A stretch of DNA of 64,000 bases from Coprothermobacter platensis DSM 11748 (lineage in GTDB: Bacteria; Coprothermobacterota; Coprothermobacteria; Coprothermobacterales; Coprothermobacteraceae): the NCBI RefSeq assembly GCF_000378005.1, contig NZ_KB899040.1:857645-921644 (forward strand), written 5' to 3'. This document shows positions 59,587-63,074 of this stretch, piece by piece; position 1 is the first letter of the stretch, and each line of letters starts with the position of its first letter. The notes beneath the pieces are model-generated. The model searched no databases. It saw only the letters and a program-made list of their open reading frames with translations, and had not been told where the DNA came from. The position numbers were made by a program, and so were the translations under genes.

Positions 59587-59624
59587 ATTATACCCGCATA
59601 CCCTATAGGGTATGCGGGTATAAT
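59587..59624. promoter_or_regulatory. 38-bp perfect palindrome, operator candidate for PDO
   Basis: The left half is ATTATACCCGCATACCCTA and the right half its exact complement. It contains ATACCC twice per half, spaced eight bases, and TATAAT at the right end (59619-59624), which serves as a -10 toward the PDO gene. The same TATACCC motif forms the operator at 63046-63074. There is no T-run, so it is unlikely to be only a terminator for the EF-G gene. Confidence 0.7.
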
Positions 59625-59662
59625 AATTTATGGAGCTTTAAGAAAATTAGGAGGTGCCTTAA

Positions 59663-60361
59663 ATGGCTATATTGAAAGATTCGGATAAAAAAGAAGTAGA
59701 GAAACGTCTGTCTGTGATGAATAAACCGGTGAAAATTATTTTGTTTAAGCCGGAAAGCGATATTGTGGTGCCCGGACGAAGGGAATGCATGTACTGCAAA
59801 GAAGTTACTGAACTCATGCAAGATTTAGTGGATACATCTGATAAGCTCTCATTAGAGATCGTAGACCCAGAGAAGGATACGGCAAAGGCTGAGAAGTATG
59901 GGTTGAAGAAAGACTTGATGGGATATATGTACCCTGCAATAACGTTCACTGTAGCAGACAACAACGAAGAGAAGCATTACAACATATGGTTTTATGGATT
60001 GCCAGCCGGATATGAATTTGCAACGATGCTGGATGATATCATAATGCTCTCTACTGGGGAACTGAAATTAAGTGAAGCATTAGTACCACAAGTGTCCAAT
60101 ATAGATAAGAAGGTAGTTATGGATGTATTTGTGACACCTACATGCCCATACTGCCCCAAAGCTGTCTTAGCTGCTCATCAATTTGCTTACGTTAATCCTA
60201 ATTTCGTCAGCAGCATGATTGAAGCAAGCGAATTTGAAGACCTTACAAACAGATGGAACGTTTACGGGGTACCGAAAACAGTTATCAACGAAAAAGTTGA
60301 GGTGGAAGGTGCCGTACCGGAAAACATGTTCCTGGATTATGTGAGGAACGCCTTAGCTTAA
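59663..60361 (+). CDS. Protein disulfide oxidoreductase (double thioredoxin fold, PDO)
   Basis: 232 residues. Two thioredoxin-like units each carry a CxxC: CMYC at 42-45 and CPYC at 161-164; the cis-Pro follows in YGVPKTVI. This two-domain glutaredoxin-like family is typical of thermophiles, where it handles protein disulfides with a thioredoxin reductase. AGGAGG precedes the ATG. The upstream palindrome suggests control by the CsoR-like protein encoded at 62764-63027; the operon of that regulator converges on this gene and shares its terminator. Confidence 0.9.
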   Translation: MAILKDSDKKEVEKRLSVMNKPVKIILFKPESDIVVPGRRECMYCKEVTELMQDLVDTSDKLSLEIVDPEKDTAKAEKYGLKKDLMGYMYPAITFTVADNNEEKHYNIWFYGLPAGYEFATMLDDIIMLSTGELKLSEALVPQVSNIDKKVVMDVFVTPTCPYCPKAVLAAHQFAYVNPNFVSSMIEASEFEDLTNRWNVYGVPKTVINEKVEVEGAVPENMFLDYVRNALA

Positions 60362-60374
60362 CAGCCACTTTACC

Positions 60375-60411
60375 AAAGAAGAGGGGCCCTTTTTCAGGGC
60401 CCCTCTTCTTT
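60375..60411. terminator. Shared bidirectional terminator
   Basis: A perfect 15-bp stem, AAAGAAGAGGGGCCC with its complement, around the loop TTTTTCA. The flanking A- and T-rich ends serve both strands. It lies between the PDO gene and the convergent flavodoxin-like gene, overlapping the latter's stop codon. Confidence 0.9.
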
Positions 60412-60919
60412 AACATTGTCTTGCTATCTCTTTTATCCTATTGGATAAAGTCCACACTTTTTCTGTGTCTACGTTATCTATATCGCCTGGTTCCTTCCCC
60501 AGAACATCAAAAACTTTTTTTACCTGTTCTTTTTCATCACTGGTAAGTTGATCCATATATACGGCACCAGGGAAATTTCCTAAAGCCAATGGGGGCCTAT
60601 CAAACAAACTGAGGTATTGTCTTACATAAATTGGTCCTCCGATTTTTTCATTACCCATTACCCTTTCATCATCGATAAGGCTTACCGCAACACCTGCCCA
60701 CATACGTCCATACAGATCACCTTTGTGGGCATCAATAAAACTCATCAGGTCTGGGTTCAGTTTGTGCTCATATACACCGCAAACGAAAACAACAGCGTCG
60801 CCCCAAAAGGAGCTCGTATTCGCCATATCCATGGCCTCACCATCAAGTACTTCCGCTATGGCTTCTGCATACTTCTTTGAGGCACCATGGCGACTCGCAT
60901 AGATAACTTGAACCTGCAT
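60410..60919 (-). CDS. Flavodoxin-like protein (HemG-type domain)
   Basis: 169 residues. VQVIYASRHGASKKYAEAIAEVL is an FMN-binding loop of the flavodoxin fold (T/S-x-x-G-x-T/S-type); DAVVFVCGVYEHKLNPDLMSFI follows as in protoporphyrinogen oxidase-like flavodoxins. It probably carries electrons to the Fe-S or disulfide partners in the operon. The ATG at 60919 with GAGGTG nine bases upstream is preferred over GTG 60931; its ribosome site lies in the end of the IscU-like gene. Confidence 0.8.
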   Translation of the reverse strand: MQVQVIYASRHGASKKYAEAIAEVLDGEAMDMANTSSFWGDAVVFVCGVYEHKLNPDLMSFIDAHKGDLYGRMWAGVAVSLIDDERVMGNEKIGGPIYVRQYLSLFDRPPLALGNFPGAVYMDQLTSDEKEQVKKVFDVLGKEPGDIDNVDTEKVWTLSNRIKEIARQC

Positions 60920-60920
60920 T

Positions 60921-61559
60921 CTACTCTTCACCTCTTCCCTCGTTTACCACTTCAACTGATTTTACTCCAGGAAGATCGGATACCTTCTCCTTGATTTCAT
61001 CTACAATTTCTTGCAGATAAGGATCATCATGAGCAAATGAGATTTCGATCCGCACATTTCCATCATCTACGCCTATGTATTTCACACGCTTCAGTGCCAC
61101 AATGTCAATTCCTTGGGGGGGATAGATAACATGATAAAGCTCACCTCTTACCAAATCGGAGCTTAGTTCTTCCTCAGGTAGACGCCCGTTTTTTCTCAGA
61201 TAATCTTTTACCGCCGCGCGCAATCCATCCACAGCAAGCACTGAACAATGATATTTTACAGGTGGTAATCCACCCAGTTCTTGAACAGCTTCAGTCCATT
61301 TTATGGATAGTGCTTCCTCCAATGTCTTGCCTTTAGCCAAATCTGTCACAATTGATGCCGTCGCAATGTTACTCGCGCATCCATAAGATTCAAACTTTAT
61401 GTCTTCTATGACATCATTGTTTATCTTAAGATAAATAGCTATTTGATCACCACACGCCGGGCTACCCACCAATGCCTCTGCATCAGGATTTTCTATTACT
61501 CCTTGGTTATGAGGGTTCTTAAAATGTTCTATTACTTTCGGATTGTACTTTATTGACAT
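60921..61559 (-). CDS. IscU-type Fe-S scaffold with extra C-terminal domain
   Basis: 212 residues against about 130-150 for IscU. The scaffold part (1-125) keeps all three ligand cysteines and the Asp: SPACGDQIA (Cys36, Asp38), SYGCASNIAT (Cys61) and KYHCSVLA (Cys105). A C-terminal domain (about 140-212) reads IDIVALKRVKYIGVDDGNVRIEISF then LQEIVDEIKEKVSDLPGVKSVEVV, resembling the MIP18/DUF59 fold but without cysteines. It should assemble Fe-S clusters with the NifS-like protein encoded just upstream. Confidence 0.85.
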   Translation of the reverse strand: MSIKYNPKVIEHFKNPHNQGVIENPDAEALVGSPACGDQIAIYLKINNDVIEDIKFESYGCASNIATASIVTDLAKGKTLEEALSIKWTEAVQELGGLPPVKYHCSVLAVDGLRAAVKDYLRKNGRLPEEELSSDLVRGELYHVIYPPQGIDIVALKRVKYIGVDDGNVRIEISFAHDDPYLQEIVDEIKEKVSDLPGVKSVEVVNEGRGEE

Positions 61560-61566
61560 CTACTCA

Positions 61567-62748
61567 TCACTCCTTATAAACTTTAGGCGCCAACGGACTT
61601 ATCTTCCTTAGTTTGCTCACAATACCAGGAATGACATCTAAAAACTTGTCTACTTCTTCGTCGGTAGTTGTCCATGTCAGCGTCATACGAATAGCGCCGT
61701 GTGCTCTCTCATAATCTCCGTACATGGCTAAAATGACATGATTTGCCTCCAAGAAAGGATTAGCACAGGCAGAGCCTGTGTCCACAGTGATGTCTTCCAT
61801 ATCTAAGTACATCTCTACCGATTCGCCTTCCACATACTTAAAGGTTAAACATACATTGCTTGGAGAACGCAGATCACCCTCTGGCCCATTGAGAAGTGTC
61901 TCTGGCACAAGATTCATCGTTTCGTTTATAAGTCTGTCCCGAAGACGCCTCATATTTTCTATCTTTGAAGGAAGGTTATCCTGCATAAGCTCTAAGGCTT
62001 TCGCAGCTCCTACAATAGAAGGAACATCCGGAGTTCCAGGGACAATCCTCGAGTAGGCTTGGCTACCGTAAATCGGTCCTTTTATAGGAACACCCTTCTT
62101 CACCCACAATGCTGTTATGCCCTTGGGACCGTGTATCCTTTCAATGCTGGCTGTTAGTAAATCAGCCAATGGTGCAAAAGACAAGTTTGGCAAACGGCCC
62201 AAACCCCACGTTACATCGTAATGTATTAGTGTATCTGGATTAGCCTCTTTAATAATTTTCGATATCTGTTCTACTGGCTGGATTGTTCCCACCATGTAGT
62301 TAACGGCACCCATGGTGACTAAAACCGTATCGTTAGTCACACTCTTTCTGAGCACATCTAAGTCTACAAACCCATTCTTATCTACTGGAATATAAGTAAC
62401 CTTTACCTTACCACTTTTCTCCAACTGCTTTACCATGTCCATAGTACTACCATGCTCGATTGCGCTTGTAATTATGTGAGGTGTTTCCAAACTTTTACCG
62501 TTTATTGCACCCTGAACGGCTATGTTATTCGCCAAACTATGGCTTTGAGCAAAATGTACTTCGTCAGGTTTCCCTCCAAACAATTTTGCATAAGCCATTT
62601 GGCTCTTCTCTATGGCTTCCGCAGCCGTGGTACCTGTGTAGGTAAACGAAGCAGGTGCCCAGTATTTTTCCGTCCACCAAGGAGTCATGGCATCTAAAAC
62701 ATCTTTGTCTACATAAGTTGATCTGCAATGGTCAAAATATGCTCTCAC
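61567..62748 (-). CDS. NifS/IscS-like protein lacking the PLP lysine
   Basis: 393 residues of the class V aminotransferase fold. The catalytic-loop Cys is present (TVDTGSACANP, Cys328), as are the stacking His (SAIEHGS, His99) and Asp178 (HYDV). The usual S-x-HK-I-Y-GPKG reads SIERIHGPKG, so Arg204 stands where the Schiff-base Lys should be. I recall that Archaeoglobus fulgidus IscS also lacks this Lys and was reported to have no desulfurase activity. GTG start with AAGGAG nine bases upstream. It lies between the CsoR-like regulator and IscU genes. Confidence 0.85.
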   Translation of the reverse strand: MRAYFDHCRSTYVDKDVLDAMTPWWTEKYWAPASFTYTGTTAAEAIEKSQMAYAKLFGGKPDEVHFAQSHSLANNIAVQGAINGKSLETPHIITSAIEHGSTMDMVKQLEKSGKVKVTYIPVDKNGFVDLDVLRKSVTNDTVLVTMGAVNYMVGTIQPVEQISKIIKEANPDTLIHYDVTWGLGRLPNLSFAPLADLLTASIERIHGPKGITALWVKKGVPIKGPIYGSQAYSRIVPGTPDVPSIVGAAKALELMQDNLPSKIENMRRLRDRLINETMNLVPETLLNGPEGDLRSPSNVCLTFKYVEGESVEMYLDMEDITVDTGSACANPFLEANHVILAMYGDYERAHGAIRMTLTWTTTDEEVDKFLDVIPGIVSKLRKISPLAPKVYKE

Positions 62749-62763
62749 TCATCAACACTCCTT

Positions 62764-63027
62764 TCACTTATTGGTTTTTTCTATCAAAACTTGCAATGCT
62801 TGGCTCAGTTCTTCTTCACCCTTAGAAGGAAGGCACTTATCCATGCGGTCTTTTGCGATTAACGATACAGCTTTTTTCATCAACCCCTGAGCAGCAGCAA
62901 TTTGCGTTGCTACCTGAGTACAACAAACGCCTTCATTTAACATGCGCTCCACGGCGTTAAGCTGTCCAATGGCCGTTTTCACCATCTGTAAGACATCTTG
63001 ACTGTATGGAGGATTCATATTATCCAT
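62764..63027 (-). CDS. CsoR/CstR-family repressor, persulfide-sensor-like
   Basis: 87 residues of the all-helical CsoR (DUF156) family: IGQLNAVERMLNEGVCCTQVATQIAAAQGLMKKAVSLIAKDRMDKCL. Cys36 and Cys65 match the conserved pair. Where copper sensors have a His (DHAHHC in B. subtilis CsoR) this protein has KDRMDKC. Cys-only members such as CstR sense persulfides. The neighbours support a sulfur role. ATG at 63027 (GGTG upstream) is preferred over GTG 63033. Probably autoregulated through the operator directly upstream. Confidence 0.85.
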   Translation of the reverse strand: MDNMNPPYSQDVLQMVKTAIGQLNAVERMLNEGVCCTQVATQIAAAQGLMKKAVSLIAKDRMDKCLPSKGEEELSQALQVLIEKTNK

Positions 63028-63045
63028 ATTCACATCACCAAGAAT

Positions 63046-63074
63046 ATTATACCCCCCTATGAGGGGGGTATAAA
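63046..63074 (-). promoter_or_regulatory. Promoter with embedded CsoR-type operator
   Basis: Reading minus: TTTATA (63074-63069), a 17-base spacer, TATAAT (63051-63046). The spacer is exactly six C, five bases, six G, and the palindrome TTATACCCCCC...GGGGGGTATAA (63047-63073) spans both hexamers. A bound repressor would cover the whole promoter. The hairpin might also stop transcripts arriving from iorAB. Confidence 0.8.

Follow-up and report, generated by a model that had tools for sequence, protein, structure and literature searches.

Persulfide-sensing repressors of the CsoR fold are represented by CstR of Staphylococcus aureus, Enterococcus faecalis and Streptococcus pneumoniae, which carry two sensor cysteines with no histidine between them and have rhodanese, SQR and persulfide-dioxygenase genes as targets. 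A further CsoR-family protein, TTHA1953 of Thermus thermophilus, is a thiol-redox repressor of sulfur-related genes whose affinity for DNA is lowered by a disulfide (PMC10318464). Here, we describe a regulator gene of the CsoR/RcnR family (csoR), its neighbouring genes and their promoter palindromes, located at positions 59587-63073 of a 64-kb stretch of the Coprothermobacter platensis DSM 11748 genome (G000, 1.42 Mb; G000:C1:857645-921644), henceforth called the window. Four of the five genes lie on the minus strand (csoR and genes for a NifS-like, an IscU/NifU-type and a flavodoxin-type protein), and a gene for a protein disulfide oxidoreductase (PDO) converges on them from the plus strand. 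With moderate confidence, the cluster is read as a CstR-like thiol/persulfide repressor set over a minimal, probably sulfide-fed iron–sulfur (Fe-S) assembly pair and over genes of thiol and protein quality.

The locus resembles the CstR systems in the fold and family of its regulator, in the two sensor cysteines without an intervening histidine, and in that the regulator's own operon is apparently under its control. Unlike in those systems, the predicted targets are Fe-S scaffold genes, a flavodoxin, a disulfide oxidoreductase and perhaps hsp20; in addition, the regulator has an extra invariant cysteine (Cys37), arginine or serine instead of asparagine at the histidine position, and low sequence identity to CstR. 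As with TTHA1953, a CsoR-family regulator is tied to sulfur-related genes in a thermophile; TTHA1953, however, controls Sox genes distant from its own gene, and its operator, TACNNTACNNNNGTANNGTA, is without G/C tracts (PMC10318464). The NifS-like and NifU-type proteins have their best solved match in IscS2-IscU of Archaeoglobus fulgidus (4eb5, 4r5f; PMC7585200), where the pyridoxal phosphate (PLP) lysine is likewise lost, the active-site cysteine is kept and an IscU with ligand cysteines adjoins. The present pair differs from it in being bacterial, in having arginine rather than aspartate at the lysine position, in the fusion of its scaffold to a FeS_assembly_P domain, and in the CsoR-type repressor gene in its operon; moreover, A. 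fulgidus has SmsCB (PMC12192291), whereas a SUF-type scaffold was not found in this genome. The minimal ISC system (MIS) also consists of one scaffold and one NifS-type partner without an adjoining carrier in an anaerobic host, but its partner is described as a cysteine desulfurase (PMC12192291), and the PLP lysine of an active desulfurase is gone here. Finally, the PDO matches the Pyrococcus type (1a8l, 1j08) over its full length, with two CxxC motifs and the TIGR02187 profile, and is ordinary except for its predicted CsoR-type operator.

Palindromes at three promoters

The operator of the csoR operon is predicted at 63047-63073 (minus strand), where a palindrome with 12-bp arms and a 3-nt loop contains a C6-N5-G6 core within TTATAC...GTATAA (TTATACCCCCC-TCATA-GGGGGGTATAA). 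It is placed between a -35-like TTTATA (63074-63069) and the -10 box TATAAT (63051-63046), the former being 17 nt upstream of the latter. The PDO operator is predicted at 59587-59624 (plus strand) and is a nested double palindrome, ATTATACCCGCATACCCTA/TAGGGTATGCGGGTATAAT, with perfect 19-bp arms and zero loop, i.e., the longest inverted repeat of the window. Its right arm includes the -10 box TATAAT (59619-59624), and a convincing -35 box is absent at this promoter. Both palindromes are built from ATACCC/GGGTAT units and overlap the -10 boxes of the csoR operon and of PDO. A first-pass annotation, made from the letters of the window alone, had pointed out the C6-N5-G6 palindrome in the csoR promoter spacer as well as a larger second palindrome of the same units at PDO, and both descriptions are borne out.

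Motif counts were obtained by pattern searches. Within the window, TATACCC-N4-20-GGGTATA was observed twice against 0.00 expected from shuffles. The genome-wide search that the first-pass annotation had proposed returned the N4-24 form only twice in the entire 1.42 Mb, both times at this cluster, and the reversed control pattern gave 0 matches; in view of the shuffles and the reversed control, the palindromes are not due to chance. The window contains just nine inverted repeats with arms of at least 10, and both palindromes as well as the terminator shared by the two transcripts are among the four longest. This strong, terminator-type, bidirectional hairpin (60375-60411) sits between the 3' ends of the convergent genes, as had been claimed before, and a hairpin of quite different sequence occupies the same position in three related genomes (G001, G003, and G004), which fits a shared terminator.

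Comparisons were made across six Coprothermobacterales genomes, of which G000, G001 (99% complete) and G003 belong to the same genus, G004 to another genus of the same family (Coprothermobacteraceae), and G005 and G006, the remaining two of the six, to a sister family. The order IorB, csoR, nifS, nifU, fld, convergent PDO, EF-G-like, ArgR is identical in the four Coprothermobacteraceae genomes; a comparison of this kind had been proposed in the first-pass annotation. In these four, the csoR operator reads TATACCCCCC-N5-GGGGGGTATAAT and the PDO operator reads ACCCG(C/T)ATACCC-N4-GGGTAT(G/A)CGGGTATAAT with diverging flanks; the C/T and G/A positions of the latter covary, and pairing is preserved. 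Missing conservation in relatives had been named beforehand as one outcome that would speak against the regulon, and both palindromes are kept. In a further genome of the genus (G002, 78% complete), no regulator, PDO or NifS variant was seen; the cluster may fall in a gap of this genome, which weighs neither way.

A relaxed motif (ATACCC-N4-26-GGGTAT) occurs at exactly three sites in G001 (1.42 Mb), namely the promoters of csoR, PDO and hsp20, the last of which encodes an Hsp20/alpha-crystallin protein and lies outside the window. The same three promoters were recovered in G003, and in G000 together with one site inside an open reading frame. The hsp20 site reads ATACCC-N5-GGGTAT followed by TATA, overlaps the promoter and is present in G000, G001, G002, and G003 (about position 1430 of locus L158; loci L155, L156, and L157). 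At all three promoters, the right arm of the palindrome runs into a TATA-type -10 box. The hsp20 promoter is a probable third target of the cluster regulator. The regulon of two operators proposed in the first-pass annotation stands insofar as both sites are conserved promoter palindromes; it was incomplete, as the hsp20 promoter had been missed.

The CsoR-family regulator and its sensory site

The csoR gene (62764-63033, minus strand) matches PF02583 at 58 bits (cut-off 22.8), and profile matches also agree with the earlier assignment of an operon headed by this gene and continued by NifS-like, IscU-like and flavodoxin-like genes. The product has 89 amino acids counted from GTG, the true start likely being an ATG two codons further inside, and forms a three-helix fold (helices 12-34, 38-67, and 73-87). 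Orthologues were found in the family only (G000, G001, G003, and G004). Fold comparison placed S. pneumoniae CstR first, followed by InrS and CsoR, all matches being weak with E > 0.001.

Cys38 and Cys67 align with the two cysteines of S. pneumoniae CstR (7mq1) and with those of the Cu(I) site of Mycobacterium tuberculosis CsoR. The first-pass annotation had reported Cys36 and Cys65 without the copper-ligand histidine, which is correct in M. tuberculosis numbering. At the histidine position, three genomes have arginine and G004 has serine, so the Cys-His-Cys site for Cu(I) is incomplete and two sensor cysteines without an intervening histidine remain, as in CstR; S. pneumoniae CstR itself carries asparagine there in an alignment of solved homologues. 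Overlooked earlier was Cys37, which all four orthologues share and every other CsoR homologue in the alignment lacks. The sulfide/persulfide genes that CstR controls (rhodanese, SQR, persulfide dioxygenase) are not among the cluster genes, which are NifS-like, NifU, flavodoxin and PDO, and the regulator was for this reason assigned no further than to the CsoR/RcnR family, its sensory site being described as CstR-like.

The NifS-like protein, its scaffold partner and the downstream genes

The NifS/IscS-like gene (61567-62748, minus strand; Aminotran_5/NifS-like match) encodes a protein that is closest, among solved structures, to A. fulgidus IscS (4r5f, 4eb5). Its PLP lysine is replaced by Arg204, a change missed in the first-pass annotation, and arginine occupies this position in 6/6 Coprothermobacterales genomes. 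Cysteine desulfurases have the motif S-x-H-K-x-x-G-P-K-G, whereas the window's protein reads S-I-E-R-I-H-G-P-K-G and those of G005 and G006 read A-H-R-I-H-G-P, the stacking histidine being replaced by alanine in the latter two. The usual glutamine is changed to tryptophan (as in the window) or arginine. Retained are the PLP-ring aspartate, the asparagine and the catalytic GSAC loop with its active-site Cys328; Cys8, Cys300 and Cys328 are invariant throughout the order (61567-62748 in the window; L021, L022, L023, L060, and L061). The predicted structure had a mean pLDDT of 56 and was not used. For the A. fulgidus protein, it is reported that the change from lysine to aspartate leaves no desulfurase activity and that the cysteine helps to ligate the IscU cluster (PMC7585200). 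Since the PLP lysine is missing in all six genomes, transfer of cysteine-derived sulfur by the NifS-like protein appears unlikely from its sequence, and the sulfur-transfer role assigned to it earlier is not upheld.

Among 386 genomes searched, the six orthologues of this variant scored 758-803 bits and the next best match 314 bits; most matches below the six keep the lysine, two have aspartate as in A. fulgidus and one has threonine. In the sequences compared, loss of the PLP lysine occurs in several lineages. A scan of genome contigs recovered the same clade only, plus one distant protein that keeps the lysine. The homologues with aspartate, from other bacteria (L118 and L123, in G346 and G076), read SSNDIYGPKG or SSNDICGPKG, and the one with threonine is L108 (G215).

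The scaffold gene (60921-61559, minus strand) encodes a NifU_N domain fused to a second domain, FeS_assembly_P (MIP18/DUF59), which had been overlooked in the first-pass annotation. All three IscU/NifU ligand cysteines are present (Cys36, Cys61, and Cys105 in PACGD, YGC, and HCS), and the nearest solved match is the IscU of the A. fulgidus IscS complex. The fusion was found in the genomes examined (also L061:2702-3343) and is, by sequence, conserved across the whole order. Each of the six genomes has one NifU_N protein, and SUFBD_core gave no match in any of them, the control genomes being positive in 14/14 cases. With neither SufB/D nor a second NifU found, no Fe-S scaffold other than the NifS-like/NifU pair was recognised in searches that did not extend to Nfu-type scaffolds and carriers. 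Sulfide can feed IscU in Escherichia coli without IscS (PMC13015791), and SMS uses sulfide (PMC12192291); on this analogy, a sulfide-fed assembly pair is plausible.

A further class V enzyme, which retains the PLP lysine, was found in G000 and G001 only. It is an EF2568/SclA-type cysteine desulfurase family protein (His-Lys) followed by yedF (L056: 1474-3264), possibly a selenium or sulfur enzyme. No other strong class V enzyme was found in G004, G005, or G006.

The flavodoxin-type gene (60410-60931, minus strand; Flavodoxin_5) has orthologues that begin at an ATG near 60919. The PDO gene (59663-60361, plus strand; P. furiosus type) scores 239.5 bits against the equivalog TIGR02187 (cut-off 185) and has the motifs CMYC (Cys42/45) and CPYC (Cys161/164); its best solved matches are 1j08 and 1a8l.

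Proposed explanation and alternatives

By analogy with CstR and TTHA1953, from which regulator binding, inducer and physiological sense are carried over, the reduced Cys-only, His-less repressor would occupy the palindromes that overlap the -10 boxes at its own promoter, at that of PDO and probably at that of hsp20. Once Cys38/Cys67, perhaps together with Cys37, became oxidised or persulfidated, it would leave the DNA, and the two assembly proteins would be induced jointly with flavodoxin, PDO and Hsp20. The minimal IscU-type scaffold would build clusters with sulfur from environmental sulfide, and the NifS-like partner, unable to form the usual PLP aldimine, would probably give a cysteine ligand or carry persulfide. 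Flavodoxin would perhaps be the electron donor, and PDO and the small heat-shock protein would deal with thiol and protein damage. The gene set, its synteny, the palindromes with their placement, the residue exchanges and the lack of SufB/D and of a second NifU are seen in the sequences; the direction of control, the sulfur source and the role of flavodoxin are what we infer. With the regulator found in one family only and the NifS variant in the whole order, repressor control was probably a later addition to an older assembly pair, or was lost in the sister family.

Several observations weigh against a thiol/persulfide repressor of this kind. Known CstR regulons hold genes for sulfurtransferases, SQR or persulfide dioxygenase, and the cluster has no gene of these kinds; for strict anaerobes surrounded by much sulfide, sulfide or persulfide is not obviously an informative inducer. 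G004 lacks the hsp20 site, and the spacing between ATACCC and GGGTAT is unequal (11, 4, and 5 nt at csoR, PDO, and hsp20). In G000 and G001, the other class V enzyme could supply cysteine sulfur. Furthermore, each of these genomes has a second, His-bearing CsoR, whose own promoter in G004 (L017, about 1757) carries TTACCCCGTGGGGTATAAT with similar half-sites; this paralogue could possibly bind the cluster operators too.

We know of no CsoR-family protein that binds an Fe-S cluster, and PDO and hsp20 suit thiol and protein stress more than Fe-S demand; it is thus unlikely that the regulator senses Fe-S supply by binding a cluster or iron at C37, C38 and C67, as a CsoR-fold analogue of IscR/SufR that feeds back on its own operon. 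This explanation would account for a regulator at the head of the sole Fe-S scaffold operon found and for the invariant third cysteine right before the sensor cysteine, absent from the other aligned homologues, and it would have a precedent in Fe-S operons elsewhere, where control often falls to repressors that bind Fe-S themselves, among them IscR and SufR (PMC8300815).

Slightly less likely still is that the PDO and hsp20 sites are served by the paralogous CsoR (G000:C1:1017605-1017832), which keeps the histidine plus a following cysteine, and that the cluster is split between regulons. The half-sites in the G004 paralogue promoter argue for it; a TTACCCCGTGGGGTATAAT-like palindrome is not present in the paralogue promoter of G000, G001, or G003, and wherever the PDO site was seen, it marked the opposite end of the csoR cluster.

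An ordinary CsoR for copper (or another metal), located by chance beside thiol-rich genes, is improbable, even though M. tuberculosis CsoR is the best match to the regulator in sequence comparison with solved structures and the operators are G/C-tract palindromes of the type usual for CsoR (PMC10318464). It was rejected on the sensory site, since the Cu(I)-ligand histidine is replaced by arginine (three genomes) or serine (one) and is found in 29/33 other aligned homologues, including the paralogue of the same genome; a copper pump or chaperone is also not among the cluster genes.

We give equally little credence to continued cysteine desulfurase activity of the NifS-like protein, for which PLP would have to be bound in the absence of its normal lysine or with a different lysine as substitute. 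The retained PLP-ring aspartate, asparagine and GSAC loop and the three ligand cysteines of the NifU partner would agree with this, but the lysine is exchanged in 6/6 genomes alongside the glutamine and, in two, the stacking histidine, and inactivity is reported for the A. fulgidus protein, which shows a loss of this kind (PMC7585200). A reading of the palindromes as terminators or RNA hairpins belonging to upstream genes is highly improbable and was rejected. In its favour, the scan scored both as terminator-like, and each separates the end of one gene from the start of another. Against it, no clear T run comes directly after the palindromes as transcription proceeds, the right arm serves as the -10 box in all genomes, conservation extends beyond pairing to the exact ATACCC/GGGTAT words, and an Rfam search of the palindromes gave no match.

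A wider proposal for the whole order is offered more tentatively, and we lean against it somewhat: having neither SUF nor an active desulfurase beside their only IscU, these bacteria would build clusters from environmental sulfide or persulfide on the IscU-MIP18 fusion, and the PLP-lysine-less NifS would assist, either structurally or as a persulfide carrier. The amount made would be set, in one of the families, by a CsoR-fold protein that senses this sulfur pool (or the clusters, via the third cysteine). CstR-like regulators, IscS without the PLP lysine, and PDO are each already known. A literature search retrieved no description of CsoR-family control of Fe-S assembly, of a CsoR-PDO link or of this combination of parts, which is weak evidence of absence as most subscription papers were outside its scope. 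If the NifS-like protein is inactive, Coprothermobacter would offer a culturable bacterial system for sulfur supply to IscU without cysteine desulfurase in anaerobes, and an example of a NifS homologue that has been kept for something other than catalysis; the few targets and conserved operators make the question of sensing directly testable.

In the unrelated genome G225 (L151: 904-1891, minus strand), a PDO gene is directly followed by the gene of a His-less two-Cys CsoR homologue, which, going by the sequences, is an independent link between these two kinds of genes.

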